In this document: positions 14,246 to 25,991 of the stretch, piece after piece
How positions within the stretch are numbered: position 1 is the first letter of the stretch
Layout of the letters: every line of letters begins with the position of its first letter
Assembly: GCA_913057205.1 (NCBI GenBank)
Contig: CAJXNO010000022.1
Coordinates: 1 to 42,212 of the forward strand
Source: an uncultured Flavobacteriales bacterium
GTDB lineage: Bacteria; Bacteroidota; Bacteroidia; Flavobacteriales_G; Salibacteraceae
Direction of reading: 5' to 3'
DNA: 42,212 nucleotides
Program-made: the position numbers and the translations under genes
Notes under the pieces: generated by a model
Told to the model about the DNA's origin: nothing
The model's database searches: none
What the model saw: only the letters and a program-made list of their open reading frames with translations

Positions 14246-14379
14246 TCGTATTTCTCTAGGAGCACTGATTTTGGTCATTGAAATTGAGGGATTTGTAGGT
14301 GCTAAGCCACTGATTTTAGGCCACCATGCGGATGCACTTTCGCTAACCTTGGCGTAATCCAAGCGTAAACTGCGTGGTC

Positions 14380-14898: not shown

Positions 14899-15196
14899 GA
14901 CGTGTTTTTAGTTTGATTGGTGCAAAGCAACCGCCACGTCATTAGCCCTATTTTCCACCAGCATTAGCTTTTGATTAAAAGCCATTAAGCGATAAACTGA
15001 TAAATGTCAGTTATTCAGCGCTTTACTTATCAGCCTGTACTGGAGGTGTTTGTGAAGAACATGAAGGGGATGTAATTGATGGGTCGACAGAACATTAAGC
15101 CAGTGTTATCGGATTGAAGTTGATGTGAAGGGAGGAGCGGTGAACACTGCTCCAAAGCCTTTGATCATCAATGATTCGATGAGCGGTAAACTTTCC
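14899..15196. other. Intergenic stretch with hairpins
   Basis: Besides the Pho-type operator it holds a perfect 6-bp inverted repeat (14967-14972 with 14977-14982) and another at 14995-15000 with 15007-15012. Either might end transcription from the 15197-15721 gene, but neither has a good T-tract. I see no gene in the rest. Confidence 0.4.
14923..14977 (-). promoter_or_regulatory. Candidate Pho operator and promoter of the PhoX remnant
   Basis: Reading the minus strand, 11-bp units begin TAAT at 14977, TAAT at 14966, GAAA at 14955 and TAAT at 14944, and the next unit (14933-14923) holds the -7 box TTGCTTTG at 14930-14923. The last TAAT starts 14 bp before the box, the same offset as in the promoter at 23955-24031. 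The box ends 24 bp before the ATG at 14898. Confidence 0.6.
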
Positions 15197-17259: not shown

Positions 17260-18951
17260 TCAAACCTTACCGGCGATCGCCTCGTTGATCTGGAAGATAT
17301 GATCGCCCACCTGCTCTAAAGAAGAATAGAGGTCGTTGTAGATCATTCCACTGTCAATGTTGTAATCCCCTTTCCCCATGTTATCCAGATGCTCCTTCCG
17401 GATGCGGTCGCGCAGCTTGTTGGTTTGCTCTTCTAGCGATTGCGCTTTCTCTAAGTCGATGTCAGAATAGCGTTGTTCTAGGTTCATGACCATGTTCTCA
17501 AACGAAAGGTCGATCAGGTCGAACATCTCCAATAAGTTCCGGCGCTGCTCCAAGGTGAACCATGCTTTGGTTTGGATCTTACGGTCATAGGTGAGCGACA
17601 TTTGAAAGAATACATCTGCGATCTGCTCGATTTCACTTACGATATCCAGCATACTTCGAACGGTCTTGCTCGACTCATCGCTCAACTCTCCCTGTGAAAC
17701 GGTCATGAGGTAGTCTGCTACCTCCACCTCGATGTTGTCTGTGATCTGCTCATACTTCTCGATGCGTTCGAGCTTGATCTTCTGTTCTTTCTTGTCCTTT
17801 TCAAAGAGGAGTTCCTTCAAGAAGCCAAGCATTCGGTGGGTGATGCCGCTGAACTTCACCAGTTCCTTTTGCGCTTCAACCAAGGATAATTCGGGCGTAT
17901 TCATGATGCCGCCGCCGATGTATTCCAAGGAGAACTGCTCGTCTTCATCAGAGCGGGTCGGTACCATCTTCGTCACGAAATTGGCGATGGTGCCTACGAA
18001 CCACACAAGCATGGTGGTATTCACCACGTTGAAGCTCATGTGGAACAAGGTCAATGCCCACTTCGTGGCCTGGCTGTTCTCAGCAGAGGGAACACCGATG
18101 GGGGTTGTTTCCATGTACACATTGATGCCGTTCAAGAAAACAGGGAATACAAAGAGCATCCACGTTACACCGATCACGTTGAAAATGAAGTGCGCCCGAG
18201 CCGCACGCTTGGCATGTACGTTTCCGATCAATGCAGCAAGGTTGGCGGTGATCGTAGTACCGATGTTCTCCCCCAATACGATGGCGGCTGCCATTTCAAG
18301 TGGCATGCCACGCTCACACATGATGATGGTCAAGGCCATGGCCGCACTGGAAGACTGCACAACAATCGTTAGCACCGTTCCGATCACCACAAAGAGTAGG
18401 GTAGAGAAAATACCATGTTGACTCAAATCGATTAGGAATTCGAGTTGAGACGGACTGATCGGTGGAACGCTCGATTTCAAGAAGTCGAGCCCCATGAACA
18501 AGACGCTGAATCCGATGATGGTTTCCCCGGCAGACTTGAGTTGATTGTTCTTGAAGAACAGCATCGGGAAACCGAATGCGATCAATGGCAAGGCATAGTC
18601 AGCAATGGAGAACTTAGAGAAACCGAAAACCAAGATCAGCACGGCCGTCATGGTGGTGCCAATGTTCGCACCCATGATCACCCCGATGGCTTGACGCAGC
18701 GTTAGGAGTCCGGCATTCACAAAACTCACGATCATGACCGTGGTTGCAGAGCTTGACTGGATTAAGGCAGTTGTAAAGAAACCCGTGATCAATCCGGTGA
18801 ATCGATTGGAGGTCATGGCGCCCAGGATGTCGCGCATCTTGTTGCCGGCAACTTTTTGGATGCCATCGCTCATCATCTTCATGCCGTAGATGAAGAGACC
18901 GAGTGAACCGATCAGCCTTAGGATCTCAAAAATGCCGAATGAACCTTCCAT
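17260..18951 (-). CDS. Na+/phosphate cotransporter with PhoU-like C-terminal domain
   Basis: 563 aa. About nine hydrophobic segments fill the first 330 residues and contain the inverted-repeat signature QSSSA twice (65-69 and 199-203), which forms the phosphate/Na+ site in type II Na/Pi cotransporters (NptA/SLC34 family). The last 200 residues are helical and PhoU-like. The protein should import phosphate across the inner membrane using the sodium gradient, or regulate phosphate efflux. Its promoter (18972-19026) carries two TAAT/TAAC units 11 bp apart, in phase with the -7 box, so I infer control by the PhoB-like regulator at 24186. Confidence 0.93.
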   Translation of the reverse strand: MEGSFGIFEILRLIGSLGLFIYGMKMMSDGIQKVAGNKMRDILGAMTSNRFTGLITGFFTTALIQSSSATTVMIVSFVNAGLLTLRQAIGVIMGANIGTTMTAVLILVFGFSKFSIADYALPLIAFGFPMLFFKNNQLKSAGETIIGFSVLFMGLDFLKSSVPPISPSQLEFLIDLSQHGIFSTLLFVVIGTVLTIVVQSSSAAMALTIIMCERGMPLEMAAAIVLGENIGTTITANLAALIGNVHAKRAARAHFIFNVIGVTWMLFVFPVFLNGINVYMETTPIGVPSAENSQATKWALTLFHMSFNVVNTTMLVWFVGTIANFVTKMVPTRSDEDEQFSLEYIGGGIMNTPELSLVEAQKELVKFSGITHRMLGFLKELLFEKDKKEQKIKLERIEKYEQITDNIEVEVADYLMTVSQGELSDESSKTVRSMLDIVSEIEQIADVFFQMSLTYDRKIQTKAWFTLEQRRNLLEMFDLIDLSFENMVMNLEQRYSDIDLEKAQSLEEQTNKLRDRIRKEHLDNMGKGDYNIDSGMIYNDLYSSLEQVGDHIFQINEAIAGKV

Positions 18952-18971: not shown

Positions 18972-19026
18972 CAAAAGTAGAGCCTTCTCAAGCTGCGCTA
19001 TTCGGGCAGAAGTTAACTTATCATTA
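18972..19026 (-). promoter_or_regulatory. Promoter and candidate Pho operator of the Na/Pi transporter
   Basis: On the minus strand TAAT starts at 19026 and TAAC at 19015, exactly 11 bp apart. Two degenerate units follow at 19004 and 18993, and the unit at 18982-18972 contains the exact -7 box TACTTTTG (18979-18972). The box has the same offset of 3 within its unit as in the PhoX and beta-helix lipoprotein promoters. It ends 20 bp before the ATG. Confidence 0.5.
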
Positions 19027-19197
19027 AAATACCCTAGACCTAAAAGGCCGTGAAACCGGTGATTTGAAGCATTTGACTGATTAAAGTGAGGAGAGAGTAT
19101 GGTGGGTTAACGAAAACCAGCGCAGATCGTGGTTTTTGCTAAGATGCGCAAAAGGCTGATAAACAGTAGAAAGCAGGCCTCTTATCGGTGAATGGAG

Positions 19198-19259
19198 TTA
19201 ACATGAGATTAAAAAACGTAACATTGGCGTAACATTGAACGAATAATTGGTTAACTTTA
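19198..19259 (+). promoter_or_regulatory. Candidate Pho operator and promoter of the 104-aa secreted protein
   Basis: CGTAACATTG occurs twice, at 19217-19226 and 19228-19237, an exact direct repeat with 11-bp period. The phase continues with GAAT at 19241 and the -7 box TAACTTTA at 19252-19259. A second pair of the same type, TTAACAT at 19198 and TTAAAAA at 19209, lies just upstream and is also 11 bp apart. The box ends 21 bp before the ATG. No TTG -33 element is present, as expected for an activator-dependent promoter. Confidence 0.65.
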
Positions 19260-19280
19260 CTGAAGTTAAAGAAACGAGCC

Positions 19281-19595
19281 ATGAAAAGTTTTGGAATAGT
19301 ATTGATGATGATGTTGCTGGCTCATGCAGGCATGTCCCAAGCACCAGGTGAATTGAAAGCTGTAGAGAATGCAGCAGATGGTGGGTATGTAGTAACGGGT
19401 GTTGATCCGCTTGGAGCGGATGTAACCGTTGTTTACAACGCAGACCTTATGAAGACCTATCAAGAGCGTACCATAGATGGAGAAACGGTGTACGCACGCT
19501 ATGCGAATGGATCATTGACAGACTACGGCGTTTACATCAAGCCAATGGCTTTAGATACGAAGAATGACGTGTTGTTCTCCAGCAAGGACGAATAG
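19281..19595 (+). CDS. Small secreted protein, function unknown
   Basis: 104 aa. Residues 1-20 are a signal peptide ending GMSQA. The mature 84 residues contain GGYVVTGVDPLGADVTVVYNADLMKTYQERTIDGETVYARYANGSL, a compact beta-rich chain without cysteines; I do not know the family. It has its own promoter with the best direct-repeat operator of the region and its own terminator at 19619-19655, so it is a single-gene unit that I infer to be induced by phosphate starvation. Confidence 0.78.
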   Translation: MKSFGIVLMMMLLAHAGMSQAPGELKAVENAADGGYVVTGVDPLGADVTVVYNADLMKTYQERTIDGETVYARYANGSLTDYGVYIKPMALDTKNDVLFSSKDE

Positions 19596-19686: not shown

Positions 19687-22530
19687 TTAGAAGGTATAGT
19701 TGTATTTCAAGCTGATACCAACACCTGGTTTGAAGGTGGTGAAAATGCCATCTTCAGCGTTGTATGAGCGATAAACCAAGGTGCGGTCTTCGTTTAAGAT
19801 GTTGTCTACCCCAAAGGTCAAACGGTGTTGGAAGTCAGCACCGAAGCTCTTGTAAGCGTTGAAGTTCAAGCTGTGGAATGGGATCGTGTAGATATCTGGC
19901 ACCCGACCGGAGGCGATGATGGTCAACTGCTCACCCTGCACGTTGTAGGCCAACGATACGTTCGCTTGGCGCTCGATGTCTTCATAAGACAAGGCTACGT
20001 TGATCGCGTAAGGCGACTGTCCAGACATCGGACGATAACGGTTTAAGGTTTCGCCGGTACGGAGGTTGTTCTCGCGCAGTTCGAATTCAGTATTGCCATT
20101 GTTGTCTACCAATACCGTCTGCATATCCACACGCGACTGAACCAAGGAAACATTGGTGCTCAAGAACATTCTGCTCAGGAAGGTGTAGGACACATTTGGA
20201 AGTCCTTTTCTCAATTCCATTTCCACCCCGAAGGTCTCTGCCAATCCTGAGTTACGTGGCTTCATGTTGTCTGGTGCAGTGGAGAAAGACACCAATTCAA
20301 TGTGGCCGTCAAATTGCTTGTAGAAAGCACCCACGGAGATCAATTCCTTCGCGCCCAAGAAGAACTCGTAGCGTACGTCAAAGTTGTTGATCATGGTTTG
20401 CTGTAGATCGATGTTACCAGAGAAGGTACGCTTGGTGATTGGGTCATAGATCTGCGCGATCGACTTCTCTTTGAACGATGGACGCGCCAGCGTTCGGTTG
20501 GCACCTAAACGAAGGTTCATGTCTTCGGTTACCTTGAACACGACGTTGGCAGAAGGAAGAATATTCACTTCATTCAAGGTCAAGGAGTCGAGGTAGCGAA
20601 CCGTACCGGAGTTGTTCTCACCGGTGTAGAACATCTGGGTGGCCTCCACACGTGCACCATACACCAACTTGATGAAGTTGAATAGGCTGTGGTTGGCCAT
20701 CAAGTAACCTGCAGCAAGCCACTGACGGGAGTCAAACGAGTTAGCAGGTTGAAAGGTACCGATGGTGTAGGTTCCGTCTGGGTTGGCATTCTCTGCATTT
20801 TCAGGAGTCCAGACGTTCTCTGGCTGCAAGTACCAATCAGGGTCAAACGAGATCTCACTGAGGTTTTCACGGGTGTGCTTGTAGGAATAGGTTTCAAATA
20901 CTCGGGTCTTGTAGGTACCCAATCCACCCATTTTGATGAAGGCCTTTTCTGCAACCGGAATCTTCAGGTCCATCTTGAAACTCTCATTGAATTCATTCAG
21001 GTCTCGCCAGAAGCGGAACAGTCCGGAACCGTTACCCGTACTCAAAGTGGTATCGCCATCGGTAACCGAGATACGCGTTTCACGGAAGTCGGGATCATAG
21101 ACGCGAGAATAAGAGAAGGCATTTGCCCAACTCAATTCTACTATTCCTAAACGGTGCTCACCGCTCACGATCGCAGATGAAAGGGTGCGTTGGCTGTACG
21201 TAAGGATGTCTTCGATCAGGGTAGCTTGGTTCTGGTTGAAATCCTGGTTGCGACGTCTAGAGGCGGAGGTCTCAGCACTTTGGCTGTTCAAAAGCGTAAC
21301 CGAAAGGGTAGAGTTATCTTTCTTGTATGCTCCGGAAAGCAAGCCCGACCAGAGAATCGTATTTCGTCCCACATCACCTATGCGTTCGATCTGACGGAAC
21401 AGTGGATACACGTCGCGTTCATTTGGCTTCAGGTAGTCGTTCGATTGAAAATCACGGTAAAAGGTGGTTTCATTCGAGTAGTTGAATACGGCATTGTAGC
21501 CGAAGGTGGCACCGGTTTCTTTATTGATCTGGTTGCCGTGGCTGAAACTGAATGATCCGTTAGGCAAAGCCATTTTGCTCTTCACCGCCATTTGAGGGCT
21601 GAAGCTTCGGGTGAGCTCTTCCTGAACGGGATCTTCCAATACAGGGTCTGGAATGCGCTCGTATTCGATCGGATCGAAAGGCAATTTGCGCTGTCCGAAG
21701 TCATAACCGGTAAACGATGTAGCTTGGCGGTCGTAAAGGATGTAGTCTGGATTGAAGTGCATACCAGGAATGAAGGTGGCACCGAATCCGATCTGTGTCG
21801 ACTTCGCATCTGGGAAGCTCTTGGTTACCACATTTACGAGTCCACCGGTAAAGTCTCCATCTAAGTCTGGACTGAATGTTTTAGATACCGCAACGTTCTC
21901 TAGGATAGACGTTGGGAAGATATCGATCTGAACAGCGTTCACGTCTGGATCCAATCCAGGAAGTGCCATGCCGTTCAAGGTTGTTTTGGTATAACGGTCT
22001 CCGAGTCCGCGTACATAAACGTATTTACCGCCTTGTACTGTAACGCCGGTAACGCGCTTGATGGCTCCGGAAAGATCAGAGTCACCGATCTTGCGGAACG
22101 ATTGAGCAGAAAGACCATCGGTTACAGAAGTTGCATTCTTCATGTCCATCAACATGGCTACTTCAGAGGTGCGTCGTACTTCTGCAGTCACTTCTACTGT
22201 TGCCAGCTCTTCCATGGCGGAAGACAGAACAGCATCGATCATCACAACTTCCCCTGGCTTCACCACAACGTCGGTAAAACTCTGAGTAGTGTAAGAGATG
22301 AACGAAACCTCGATGGTATAGGTGCCAGGATTCAATGGGAGGGAGTAGTTACCATCGAAGTCGGTGGTTGTACCTACGCCTGGCATTCCCTTTACGGTGA
22401 TGGCTGCGCCGATCATGGGTCCTCCGAAATCGCCGTCGCCGACGTTTCCTCTAACGAACCCTTTTTCTTGAGCAAGCAATGTACCTGAAAACAGGATGCT
22501 CAATAAGAGTGATATAACTATACGTGTCAT
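19687..22530 (-). CDS. TonB-dependent outer-membrane receptor with carboxypeptidase-like N-terminal domain
   Basis: 947 aa. A signal peptide (to about LLAQE) is followed by a carboxypeptidase-D-regulatory-like beta domain (about 24-110: GFVRGNVGDGDFGGPMIGAA, TDFDGNYSLPLNPGTYTIEV), a plug domain (YVRGLGDRYTKTTLNGMALPG) and a 22-strand barrel ending ISLKYNYTF with terminal Phe. It imports a ligand across the outer membrane using TonB energy. It lies 97 bp downstream of the beta-helix lipoprotein gene, with a hairpin between, as in receptor/surface-lipoprotein pairs. No SusD-type gene is present. From context the ligand may be phosphate or a phosphoester. Confidence 0.92.
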   Translation of the reverse strand: MTRIVISLLLSILFSGTLLAQEKGFVRGNVGDGDFGGPMIGAAITVKGMPGVGTTTDFDGNYSLPLNPGTYTIEVSFISYTTQSFTDVVVKPGEVVMIDAVLSSAMEELATVEVTAEVRRTSEVAMLMDMKNATSVTDGLSAQSFRKIGDSDLSGAIKRVTGVTVQGGKYVYVRGLGDRYTKTTLNGMALPGLDPDVNAVQIDIFPTSILENVAVSKTFSPDLDGDFTGGLVNVVTKSFPDAKSTQIGFGATFIPGMHFNPDYILYDRQATSFTGYDFGQRKLPFDPIEYERIPDPVLEDPVQEELTRSFSPQMAVKSKMALPNGSFSFSHGNQINKETGATFGYNAVFNYSNETTFYRDFQSNDYLKPNERDVYPLFRQIERIGDVGRNTILWSGLLSGAYKKDNSTLSVTLLNSQSAETSASRRRNQDFNQNQATLIEDILTYSQRTLSSAIVSGEHRLGIVELSWANAFSYSRVYDPDFRETRISVTDGDTTLSTGNGSGLFRFWRDLNEFNESFKMDLKIPVAEKAFIKMGGLGTYKTRVFETYSYKHTRENLSEISFDPDWYLQPENVWTPENAENANPDGTYTIGTFQPANSFDSRQWLAAGYLMANHSLFNFIKLVYGARVEATQMFYTGENNSGTVRYLDSLTLNEVNILPSANVVFKVTEDMNLRLGANRTLARPSFKEKSIAQIYDPITKRTFSGNIDLQQTMINNFDVRYEFFLGAKELISVGAFYKQFDGHIELVSFSTAPDNMKPRNSGLAETFGVEMELRKGLPNVSYTFLSRMFLSTNVSLVQSRVDMQTVLVDNNGNTEFELRENNLRTGETLNRYRPMSGQSPYAINVALSYEDIERQANVSLAYNVQGEQLTIIASGRVPDIYTIPFHSLNFNAYKSFGADFQHRLTFGVDNILNEDRTLVYRSYNAEDGIFTTFKPGVGISLKYNYTF

Positions 22531-22627: not shown

Positions 22628-23932
22628 TTAGATTTCGCTGTTCAAGCCAGCAGCACCCCATGACCAAGTAGAAAGGTCAATCGTAGTGCCAGAGCCATCA
22701 ACAATTACAGCGTTTGCAACAGCTGTTTGAGCAGCTTCAGTTTCAGCAACACAAGTTGCTTCGTCTGCGTTCTCGTAAACCTCAACAGCAGCCATTGCAC
22801 AGTTGTCGAATACAAGGTCGCCGTCAAGTACATTAACAGCGGCGTCGTTCTTAGTTGAACAATCGTCTTCGAAAGAAGCACGGATTTTAACTGGCTTGTT
22901 GCCGTATTCGAAGGTTACGTTGCGAACTGTTCCTTGTGCCTTAGACTTGAAGTCTGCAGCAGAACCTTCAGAACCTTCAGCACGGCAAAGTCCGTTCACC
23001 AAAGTGAACATACCATCCGTGTAGGTAGAACCTTCAGGACCGTCGATCTCCAAACCTTCATCTGTACCGATTCCGTCACCGTGGATCACAGCGAAGTTTG
23101 TGATGGTGCCAGAGTAGTTCTGGTCGATGTCGATTCCGTCGTCCCCTTGGTAGTATACGAACAAGTTAGAAGCGTTCACTGTACCACCGAAGAACTCGAT
23201 ACCATCATCCAAAGTAGCGTAGATCTCGATGTGATCGATGGTAGTACCGTTACCAACACCAGCAAGGGTCAAGCCATTCAATTCGTTACCCTCACCGATA
23301 GAGATACCACCGTGACGGATAGAAACGTAGCGCATAACACCAGAGTTGTCGCTAGCGTTGTCGCCACCGTACTCACCGTATCCTTCATCAGCAGGAATAC
23401 CTTCAAGGTTACCGACCTTGTCACCGTTCTCAGTTGAGCTAGGAGCATCACCCAAGATAGCAACACCACCCCACTTCTCGTTGTCTGTACGAGTAAGGTT
23501 GGTTCCTACTTTCTCTCCTACTTGAATGTTGTCAAGGATAGTAGTGAAAATGATCGGGTTCTCAGCAGTACCTTCAGCCATGATCTTACCGCCTTTTGCG
23601 ATGATCAATGCAGAAGCAGCTGCCTCTTGTCCTTCAAGACCTTTAATAATAGTACCGGGCTCAATCGTAAGTGTAGCACCGTCACGAACAACAACTTTAC
23701 CATCAAGCTCCCAAATACGGTCAGCAGTCCAAGTTGTGTTTGAAGTAATGTCACCACTAACAGCTTGATCAGCGAAGTCGCAAGAACCGTCGTCTTCTTT
23801 TGCGCGGTCATCGTAGTTAGTAGCGTCTGGGTCAGTACATCCCTCTCGGTTACAAGAAGAAACTGACAATACAAATCCTAGTGACAGAAGTACTGCCATA
23901 GATCTTGTAGCGGATAGGTAAATTCTTTTCAT
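22628..23932 (-). CDS. Surface lipoprotein with right-handed beta-helix, partner of the TonB receptor
   Basis: 434 aa. The lipobox is SVSSC (Cys27). Right after it is GCTDPDATNYDDRAKEDDGSC (split motif with Asp-rich, probably Ca-binding residues), seen singly or in repeats in Bacteroidota surface proteins. Residues about 60-370 have the Gly/Asn/Asp-rich repeats of a parallel beta-helix (GATLTIEPGTIIKG, GGVAILGDAP, IEIYATLDDGIEFFGGTVNASNLFVYYQGDDGIDI). Composition is acidic. It is the first gene of a two-gene unit with the TonB receptor and is preceded by seven in-phase 11-bp operator units. I infer it captures a phosphorus-containing ligand at the cell surface; no enzyme motif is visible. Confidence 0.85.
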   Translation of the reverse strand: MKRIYLSATRSMAVLLSLGFVLSVSSCNREGCTDPDATNYDDRAKEDDGSCDFADQAVSGDITSNTTWTADRIWELDGKVVVRDGATLTIEPGTIIKGLEGQEAAASALIIAKGGKIMAEGTAENPIIFTTILDNIQVGEKVGTNLTRTDNEKWGGVAILGDAPSSTENGDKVGNLEGIPADEGYGEYGGDNASDNSGVMRYVSIRHGGISIGEGNELNGLTLAGVGNGTTIDHIEIYATLDDGIEFFGGTVNASNLFVYYQGDDGIDIDQNYSGTITNFAVIHGDGIGTDEGLEIDGPEGSTYTDGMFTLVNGLCRAEGSEGSAADFKSKAQGTVRNVTFEYGNKPVKIRASFEDDCSTKNDAAVNVLDGDLVFDNCAMAAVEVYENADEATCVAETEAAQTAVANAVIVDGSGTTIDLSTWSWGAAGLNSEI

Positions 23933-23954: not shown

Positions 23955-24031
23955 CAAAGAAATTGCGGTCAGATTACCGTGGAATTAGAGTCCTATTAAC
24001 GCTACGTTACGAAAGTGTTTCTCGAATGTTT
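23955..24031 (-). promoter_or_regulatory. Seven tandem 11-bp units ending in a -7 box: candidate Pho operator
   Basis: On the minus strand, consecutive 11-bp units start AAAC (24031), AAAC (24020), TAAC (24009), TAAT (23998), TAAT (23987), TAAT (23976) and CAAT (23965). The last unit contains the -7 box TTTCTTTG at 23962-23955, which ends 22 bp before the ATG at 23932. There is no TTG -33 element. OmpR/PhoB-type regulators bind tandem repeats with 11-bp period, and a PhoB-like regulator gene lies directly upstream in the opposite direction. Confidence 0.7.
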
Positions 24032-24108
24032 TTCGGATGCAGCTTGGTTAATGTTCACGCAATACCGCGTCTTCTTTGCCTTGCGTGCGCTGACTTCAGG
24101 AAAAGTGT

Positions 24109-24160
24109 TTACATTCGAGTAAGTTAGAATTAACACTATGTGAAGAATTCTAATATTTTG
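24109..24160 (+). promoter_or_regulatory. Candidate Pho operator of the PhoB-like regulator gene (autoregulation)
   Basis: Units of 11 bp start TTAC at 24109, TAAG at 24120, TAAC at 24131 and GAAG at 24142, followed in phase by ATATTTTG at 24153-24160, a poor -7 box that keeps TTTG. The order TAA, TAA, GAA, box is the same as in the 104-aa gene promoter (19219-19259). The box ends 25 bp before the ATG at 24186. Confidence 0.5.
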
Positions 24161-24185: not shown

Positions 24186-24914
24186 ATGGCAGCCCGTCTA
24201 CATTCGAAGCCAGATTCTGATAACAGCGAACCAATGCTTTCAAAAAAGAAGATCCTGGTGGTTGACGATGAAGAAGACATCGTTGAATTCCTGAGCTATA
24301 ACCTCGAAAAGGAAGGTGCGAAGGTGTACAAGGCGTACAACGGACTTGCCGCCATCGACATTGCCAAGAAGAAAAAACCGGATCTCATCCTATTAGATGT
24401 AATGATGCCCGAAATGGATGGGGTGGAAACCTGCATCCAGATCCGCGAAAAGCAAGATACCAAGAACATCATCGTTGCGTTCCTTACCGCTCGCGGTGAA
24501 GACTACTCGCAGATCGCGGGATTCGATGCCGGTGCAGATGATTACATCACGAAGCCAGTTAAGCCACGTGTGCTCATCAGTCGTTTAAAGGCCTTGCTTC
24601 GACGCAAAGAGGGAGCCATCCAAACCGAAGGTACCACCGAAGTGAAGTCGCTTAAGATCGATCGCGACCGCTATGTTGTGGTGAAAGATGAAGAAGAACT
24701 GAACCTGCCGAAGAAGGAGTTTGAACTCCTAGCTTTGTTGATATCGATCCCTGGAAAGGTGTTTACGCGTGAGACCATTCTATCCTCCGTATGGGGCGAA
24801 GACGTAGTGGTGGGAGATCGTACCATCGACGTTCATATCCGTAAGCTGCGGGAGAAGATCGGAAGCTCCCACATCAAAACCATCAAGGGCGTAGGCTACA
24901 AGTTTGAGGAGTAA
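24186..24914 (+). CDS. PhoB/OmpR-family response regulator
   Basis: 242 aa. The receiver domain (about 20-137) has the acidic pocket VVDDEED, the phospho-accepting D71 in LLDVMMPEMDG, a Thr in FLTARG and a Lys in DYITKPVKP. A winged-helix DNA-binding domain follows (about 150-240: KEFELLALLISIPGKVFTRETIL, DRTIDVHIRKLREKIG, IKGVGYKFEE). This is a transcription factor of the PhoB type, paired with the kinase 30 bp downstream. I keep the ATG at 24186 because a promoter-like element lies 25 bp before it; ATG 24234 (MLSKKK) is an alternative giving 226 aa. The phosphate assignment rests on the kinase type, the neighbours and the 11-bp operators. Confidence 0.93.
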   Translation: MAARLHSKPDSDNSEPMLSKKKILVVDDEEDIVEFLSYNLEKEGAKVYKAYNGLAAIDIAKKKKPDLILLDVMMPEMDGVETCIQIREKQDTKNIIVAFLTARGEDYSQIAGFDAGADDYITKPVKPRVLISRLKALLRRKEGAIQTEGTTEVKSLKIDRDRYVVVKDEEELNLPKKEFELLALLISIPGKVFTRETILSSVWGEDVVVGDRTIDVHIRKLREKIGSSHIKTIKGVGYKFEE

Positions 24915-24937
24915 TCCCTCGGTCCTTCCTAGCTTTG
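24903..24937 (+). promoter_or_regulatory. Internal promoter for the sensor kinase gene
   Basis: TTTG at 24903-24906 and the exact -7 box TAGCTTTG at 24930-24937 are 23 bp apart. The -33 element lies inside the end of the regulator gene. The box ends 7 bp before the kinase ATG, so a transcript from here would have almost no leader. Confidence 0.55.
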
Positions 24938-24944
24938 TACCCGC

Positions 24945-25991
24945 ATGAGAATCGAAAACCCCAACCAAGTAGCGGTATTCATCGCGGGTTCGATCACCTT
25001 GATCGGCTTGTTGATCCTGCTCTCGGTGCAAGCTTATGTGACCCGATTCATGCCGGCTTGGGGTTGGTTCGCTTTCGTCATTCTATCCTTTTCTAGCTCC
25101 TTCGCGCTTACCTGGTGGGCAGTGGAAACCTTCATTCATGGTAAGATCATGACCTTGTTTCGCTCTATCCATACCCCTTCACAAACAGAAGAACGCGCCA
25201 AGGAAGCCATCCGCTCGCGCGATGTCTTGGGTGAGGTTCAAAAGGATGTGGAAGAATGGGCTAGTGTGAAGCAAAGTGAGATCCAGACCTTGAAGGAACA
25301 AGCAAGGTTTCGGCGCGACTTCATCGGAAACCTGGCCCATGAGCTGAAGACCCCGATCTTCAATATGCAGGGCTACCTGCTCACGTTGATTGAAGGTGGC
25401 TTGGAAGATCCGAAGATCAATTATGAATACCTGTCGCGCGCAGACAAGAACCTCGAACGCCTGATCGCCTTGATCGAAGACCTTGACAGTATTTCAAAAC
25501 TCGAGGCGGGTAATGAGGTCTTGAAGTTTGAGAAGTTCAACATCATCGGTTTGGTGGAGGATGTGTTCAGCATGTTCGAGCTGCGGGCACATGAGCAAGA
25601 CATTACCCTGCGCTTCAATAAGAAGTACGATCGTCCTATTTGGGTGAAGGCAGACAAGAGCAAAATCCAGCAGGTGCTCACCAACCTCATTTCGAATGCC
25701 ATCAACTACGGACATAAAGGCGGGTACTGCGAAATTCGCTTCTTTGATATGTCGCAAACCATACTCATCGAGGTGGCGGACGACGGAATCGGAGTGCCTG
25801 CTGAAAAGCTTCCCCGCTTGTTTGAGCGTTTTTATCGCGTAGATCAAAGCCGATCACGCCACGAAGGAGGTACCGGTCTCGGCCTGGCGATCTGTAAACA
25901 CATTGTGGAGTCGCACGGACAAACCATCAGTGCGCGTAGTGTCGTGGATAAGGGAACCACGTTTTCATTAACCCTGGAGAAGGCCAAATAA
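24945..25991 (+). CDS. PhoR-like sensor histidine kinase
   Basis: 348 aa. Two transmembrane segments (about 10-31 and 40-62) enclose only a very short periplasmic loop, so there is no extracellular sensor domain. The HisKA box is RRDFIGNLAHELKTPI with the phosphorylated H132, as in PhoR. The ATPase domain shows the N box TNLISNAINYG, G1 DDGIGVP and G2 GGTGLGLAICKHIV. It should phosphorylate the regulator encoded just upstream. PhoR-type kinases without a sensor loop often take their signal from a transporter/PhoU complex; the PhoU-like domain of the Na/Pi protein is a candidate partner. Confidence 0.93.
   Translation: MRIENPNQVAVFIAGSITLIGLLILLSVQAYVTRFMPAWGWFAFVILSFSSSFALTWWAVETFIHGKIMTLFRSIHTPSQTEERAKEAIRSRDVLGEVQKDVEEWASVKQSEIQTLKEQARFRRDFIGNLAHELKTPIFNMQGYLLTLIEGGLEDPKINYEYLSRADKNLERLIALIEDLDSISKLEAGNEVLKFEKFNIIGLVEDVFSMFELRAHEQDITLRFNKKYDRPIWVKADKSKIQQVLTNLISNAINYGHKGGYCEIRFFDMSQTILIEVADDGIGVPAEKLPRLFERFYRVDQSRSRHEGGTGLGLAICKHIVESHGQTISARSVVDKGTTFSLTLEKAK

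Follow-up and report, generated by a model that had tools for sequence, protein, structure and literature searches.

Bacteroidota play a major part in phosphorus cycling in the sea and in soils. In other phyla, TTAACA-like repeats with a period of 11 bp make up the PhoP boxes of Bacillus subtilis, and TTAAC-type repeats the Pho box of cyanobacteria, with several tandem units per promoter in both cases. PhoB binds 11-nt direct repeats arranged head to tail, and its boxes overlap the -35 region of the activated promoters (PMC4415409; PMC2695467), with a consensus that varies between species (PMC4415409). Within the Bacteroidota, PhoB of Bacteroides fragilis binds the pstC promoter in an EMSA on a 512-bp fragment, in which no site or consensus was defined (PMC3547664). 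Flavobacterium johnsoniae harbors PUSIV, a PhoBR-linked low-phosphate cluster comprising the TBDT Fjoh_0545 and the FII lipoprotein Fjoh_0546 (PMC8115612). For the 'PhoBR operon' of this species, an increase of about 2^10 for the FII lipoprotein and 2^8 for the TBDT was reported upon phosphate depletion; no operator is described in that study, and the Pho box is absent from its main text (PMC8115612).

The window analysed here, a stretch of 42,212 nucleotides from an uncultured Flavobacteriales bacterium, contains an array of 11-bp repeats situated between a divergent phoB-kinase pair (24186–25991, plus strand) and a minus-strand operon encoding a lipoprotein and a TonB receptor, which is followed by a Na/Pi cotransporter gene. 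As in PUSIV, which is strongly induced by phosphate depletion, a beta-helix lipoprotein and a TonB receptor adjoin phoBR, and the genes are homologous. With a probability of roughly 0.9, the array represents a Bacteroidota Pho box at which PhoB, the product of the divergent gene, would bind as head-to-tail dimers and activate the lipoprotein/TonB-receptor operon. It resembles the Pho box of E. coli in its 11-nt head-to-tail units, in a regulator of the same subfamily and in its position in the -35 zone (PMC4415409; PMC2695467). It differs in its core, which is TTAAC, with no E. coli-type CTGTCAT consensus in the array, in the number of units (six compared with the basic two of E. coli) and in its register, which is set to the Bacteroidota -7 box (TTTG). 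The boxes of B. subtilis PhoP and of cyanobacteria have the same 11-bp period and an almost identical half-site word, but belong to other phyla and other promoters. While operators of this kind are already known, neither the phylum-specific word nor the exact register to the -7 box was found described; no account of a Bacteroidota Pho box was found in the open literature, subscription journals lying mostly outside the scope of the search, which is weak evidence of novelty.

Architecture of the array and the promoter

On the minus strand between positions 24032 and 23956, seven AAY cores can be read directly from the sequence, one every 11 bp. With one base added at the 5' side, the units start with AAAAC (24032), GAAAC (24021), GTAAC (24010), TTAAT (23999), CTAAT (23988), GTAAT (23977) and GCAAT (23966), every step being exactly 11 bp. 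Direct reading and a period scan agree here with the initial annotation, which had listed seven units, their start coordinates and the 11-bp phase. Within the intergenic region of 253 bp, in-phase runs of AAY reach seven units at period 11 and at most two at any other period, except for four at the harmonic period 22; across the whole window, with both strands and periods 3 to 30 considered, runs do not exceed four at any period but 11. Scored with a matrix built from 105 training regions, from which the own-genus cluster was left out, the array reaches 22.3 bits, compared with a maximum of 17.5 in 1,000 dinucleotide shuffles. This score is equalled by one of 156 control upstream regions, and no array of at least 22 bits occurs in a further 300 kb of this genome, in stretches that were partly picked around matches of a TWAAY pattern search. 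When the complete 2.8-Mb genome is scanned with a sequence profile (R1), the array ranks first (E 0.005); unlike the matrix, this profile includes close orthologues, and its matches at orthologous sites within the genus arise partly by construction. The 11-bp repeat is not due to chance.

The position of the repeat is fixed relative to the promoter. When 99 related promoters, the window's own excluded, are aligned at the TTTG of their -7 boxes, AAY cores form sharp single-base peaks at 15, 26, 37, 48, 59 and 70 bp before TTTG, each position being occupied in 35–60% of the promoters compared with 3–12% in the controls, which are flat. At 81 bp nothing rises above background. Altogether, 44% of all AAY cores are in register, compared with 10% in controls; 10 of 97 related promoters have no in-register core, which counts against the reading as a Pho box. 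The cores of the window occupy all six register positions and, in addition, the position at 4 bp. A core at this last distance, which corresponds to the seventh unit (CAAT at 23965), is present in just 10% of the related promoters. Because the peaks are confined to the six distances from 15 to 70 bp, the functional array is assigned on comparative grounds to six half-sites, extending from 24032 to 23967, and what had been counted as a seventh operator unit is taken to be part of the promoter element itself.

All six half-sites lie on the minus strand. The cores of half-site 1, AAAACATTCGA (24022–24032), and half-site 2, GAAACACTTTC (24011–24021), end 70 and 59 bp before TTTG and coincide with peaks in the related promoters, and half-site 3, GTAACGTAGCG (24000–24010, 48 bp), is the strongest unit with 7.95 bits. 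Half-sites 4, TTAATAGGACT (23989–23999), 5, CTAATTCCACG (23978–23988), and 6, GTAATCTGACC (23967–23977), located 37, 26 and 15 bp before TTTG, are defined by both matrix and register. The array as a whole displays tandem 11-nt direct repeats with a conserved core and a less conserved remainder, placed in the -35 (here -33) zone at a fixed spacing of 15+11n bp to TTTG.

The -7 element TTTCTTTG (23955–23962, minus strand; TTTG at 23958–23955) overlaps the former seventh unit. As initially described, it is not accompanied by a -33 TTG, and a TTG in this zone is also rare in relatives (5 of 79 related promoters). The TTTGC of the -7 box is invariant in an alignment of five relatives.

Conservation of the repeat in related genomes

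Relatives of the lipoprotein gene are present in 32 of the 35 genomes of the family, and 80 further lipoprotein loci were collected, nearly all from Bacteroidota. The kinship of these sequences inflates the figures for conservation and regulon, which are descriptive. In a motif-free autocorrelation, in which identities at distance p are counted in upstream regions, period 11 is the sole enriched period in the 30 regions taken from the family (z 9.7). For the wider Bacteroidota loci, z amounts to 10.1 where phoB is not nearby and to 5.0 where it is, compared with 3.0 in the control set, 156 regions upstream of other genes, despite its larger number of sequences. With a family-trained matrix applied to the wider loci, 72% of the lipoprotein promoters score at least 12 at period 11, compared with 12% of controls, and a fraction of 0.01–0.04 of regions does so at periods 9, 10, 12 and 13. 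The 11-bp phase, the absence of which at orthologues had been named initially as an argument against an operator, is kept.

Within the motif of the 105-region matrix, positions 2–5 are T (0.92), A (0.83), A (0.99) and C (0.59; T 0.23), followed by an A/T-rich part. Among five close relatives, identity reaches 96% in the columns of the AAY cores, compared with 66% elsewhere in the array (p = 4e-5), and drops to about 38% immediately upstream of the array. Of 84 arrays, 30 comprise six units and 24 comprise four. The preference for even unit numbers fits dimers but is only a hint, as both the choice of matrix and the relatedness of the sequences influence it.

The divergent regulator and its proposed mode of action

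The candidate ligand of the array is the PhoB-like response regulator encoded at 24186–24914 (plus strand), followed by a PhoR-like sensor histidine kinase (24945–25991, plus strand; family matches). The best families of the regulator are PhoB models, with scores under the curated cut-offs (219.6 vs 296.2 and 216.7 vs 270). Of the four OmpR-family regulators (Trans_reg_C) in the genome, it alone carries a PhoB-like recognition helix TxDVHxRxLR (DRTIDVHIRKLREK), which is close to the recognition helix of E. coli PhoB; the helices of the other three are TRTIDNFIVNFRKY, GRSMDVFITKLRKY and SRSMDVYIAKLRKY. A regulator of PhoB type with a matching recognition helix is present in the genome, though with scores below those cut-offs. 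The adjoining, divergent PhoB-like gene noted in the initial annotation is thereby recovered, and the 11-bp period cited there as the spacing of 'PhoB/OmpR' sites applies to PhoB and PhoP, not to OmpR-type regulators in general.

The first gene of the facing operon (22628–23932, minus strand) encodes a lipoprotein of 434 residues without a Pfam match. Its AlphaFold2 model (mean pLDDT 88) contains many short strands; parallel beta-helices, such as those of pectate lyases, epimerases and tailspikes, account for nearly all of the best structural matches, although these matches are weak and none has an E below 0.001; homologues are located in PhoBR-linked low-phosphate clusters (PMC8115612). The second gene (19687–22530, minus strand) is assigned to a TonB-dependent receptor by its Plug and CarboxypepD_reg matches and by synteny. 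The divergent phoB-kinase pair is found in many lipoprotein loci. In some loci (L054, L056, L058, L095 and L108), two PhoB-like regulators are encoded close to the lipoprotein/TonB-receptor pair, and two lipoprotein genes are present in L054, L079 and L087.

An operator of the same architecture could serve another OmpR-family regulator, its association with phosphate being incidental. The genome has three further Trans_reg_C regulators, and most lipoprotein loci of the wider set have no phoB within the fetched flank. However, the other three regulators do not have the TxDVHxRxLR helix, the motif is also located before nptA and pst, and expression of the homologous operon in F. johnsoniae rises at low phosphate (PMC8115612), which makes this explanation improbable. 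The cooperative tandem operator for the PhoB-like protein that had been proposed initially is instead supported by the conserved phase, the recurrence before nptA and pst and the sole PhoB-like helix; the protein would bind there under the control of phosphate.

According to the proposed mechanism, the operator would consist of six half-sites of 11 bp in head-to-tail order, with the consensus TTAAC followed by A/T-rich sequence, the last ending 15 bp before TTTG, and would take the place of the -33 element of a normal promoter. Upon phosphate starvation, the adjacent PhoR-like kinase would phosphorylate the divergently encoded PhoB, and PhoB~P would bind to the six half-sites as three cooperative head-to-tail dimers. 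The promoter-proximal dimer might then touch sigma at the vacant -33 position and recruit sigma-A RNA polymerase to the weak -7 box, switching on the beta-helix lipoprotein/TonB-receptor operon of this organism at low phosphate. The helical register offers a clean test of activator action at the unusual -33/-7 promoters of the phylum.

Alternatively, PhoB might bind and repress, with six bound monomers over the -33 zone excluding RNA polymerase, as the overlap of the array with the place of the -33 element would allow. However, activation is in keeping with the missing -33 element and with a phase relative to the -7 box that is exact across distant genera, and the homologues are induced, not repressed, upon phosphate depletion (PMC8115612), so that repression is even less likely than a different regulator. 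That the period reflects a mere DNA-shape signal (phased A-tracts or an UP-like element), as the A/T-rich cores and the weak period-11 excess in control upstream regions (z 3.0) could suggest, is very improbable given that period 10 is not enriched, though the helical repeat is about 10.5, that positions 2–5 form a specific core, and that control cores have no register to TTTG.

Further arrays and phosphate genes

Among phosphate-acquisition genes, nptA and pst are classical members of Pho regulons, and the motif recurs before both. In the window, the Na/Pi cotransporter with C-terminal PhoU domains (17260–18951, minus strand; family matches) is preceded by a two-unit box, TTAATGATAAG TTAACTTCTGC (19006–19027, minus strand), the last core of which lies 37 bp before the TTTG of the -7 box TACTTTTG (18972–18979, minus strand) used in the register test. 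With the 105-region matrix, a two-unit box is found upstream of nptA genes throughout the family; the distance from the last core to TTTG is 37 bp in 17 and 26 bp in 3 cases, and 20 of 24 are in register, including the gene of the window. Upstream of pst operons from the whole class, the strand of the gene carries stronger arrays than the opposite one (p = 3e-4), arrays of at least 17 bits are not found at other periods in the pst upstream regions, and 12 of the 20 pst upstream regions with a TTTG hold the 15+11n distance. The recurrence anticipated initially for nptA, pst and phoX is found for the first two; PhoX genes of relatives show scattered arrays only, with poorly fixed start codons, and the own genome has neither PhoA (PF00245) nor PhoX (PF05787). 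It is well supported by these comparisons that recurrence of the layout before Bacteroidota phosphate genes marks the array as the putative PhoB docking site of the phylum. This provides a searchable Bacteroidota Pho operator, TTAAC every 11 bp with the last core 15 bp (or 15+11n) before TTTG, a definition that lets Pho regulons be predicted across Bacteroidota. The looser pattern TWAAY-N6-TWAAY-N6-TWAAY with one mismatch, which occurs at 17 places compared with 8 for the reversed pattern, was too unspecific for defining a regulon.

None of the 35 family genomes contains a PstC at or over the cut-off, and the PhoU domains listed in these genomes coincide with the reading frames of Na/Pi cotransporters. 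Tentatively, the family might run its Pho regulon without Pst or a free-standing PhoU, the PhoU tail of the cotransporter replacing Pst-PhoU as the phosphate sensor that quiets PhoR. The gene of this PhoU-tailed cotransporter has itself a predicted in-register Pho box, as described above; if the proposal is true, the PhoU tail would close the loop on the six-half-site operator.

A three-unit array, TTTACATTCGA GTAAGTTAGAA TTAACACTATG (24108–24140, plus strand; 15.4 bits), faces phoB, is a conserved block in five relatives and points to possible autoregulation of phoB. The 17-bp block TCGAATGTAAACACTTT (24118–24102, minus strand), invariant in the five relatives, overlaps this array. The second-best profile match of the genome (E 0.03; matched at 19218–19259) is a four-unit array (19218–19261, plus strand) about 20 bp before an ORF for a secreted protein of 104 residues (19281–19595), with no TTTG at the expected distance. 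Neither this array nor that before phoB has a 15+11n distance to a clear -7 box, which counts against the Pho-box reading. Array and ORF are kept together in relatives, and a further copy of the array is located near a second Na/Pi cotransporter in another genome (G011, locus L221).

The third-best array of the genome (E 1.2) precedes a ChaN-like gene (PF04187), and its counterpart is present in a relative. In both (L013, 1496–1538; L235, 1501–1547), the array ends 5–7 bp before the gene start in a 60-bp divergent gap, which is too close for a usual promoter. Two more arrays in the window, of 17.5 bits (15055–15109, minus strand) and 17.1 bits (14343–14375, plus strand), are situated beside ORFs without Pfam matches.
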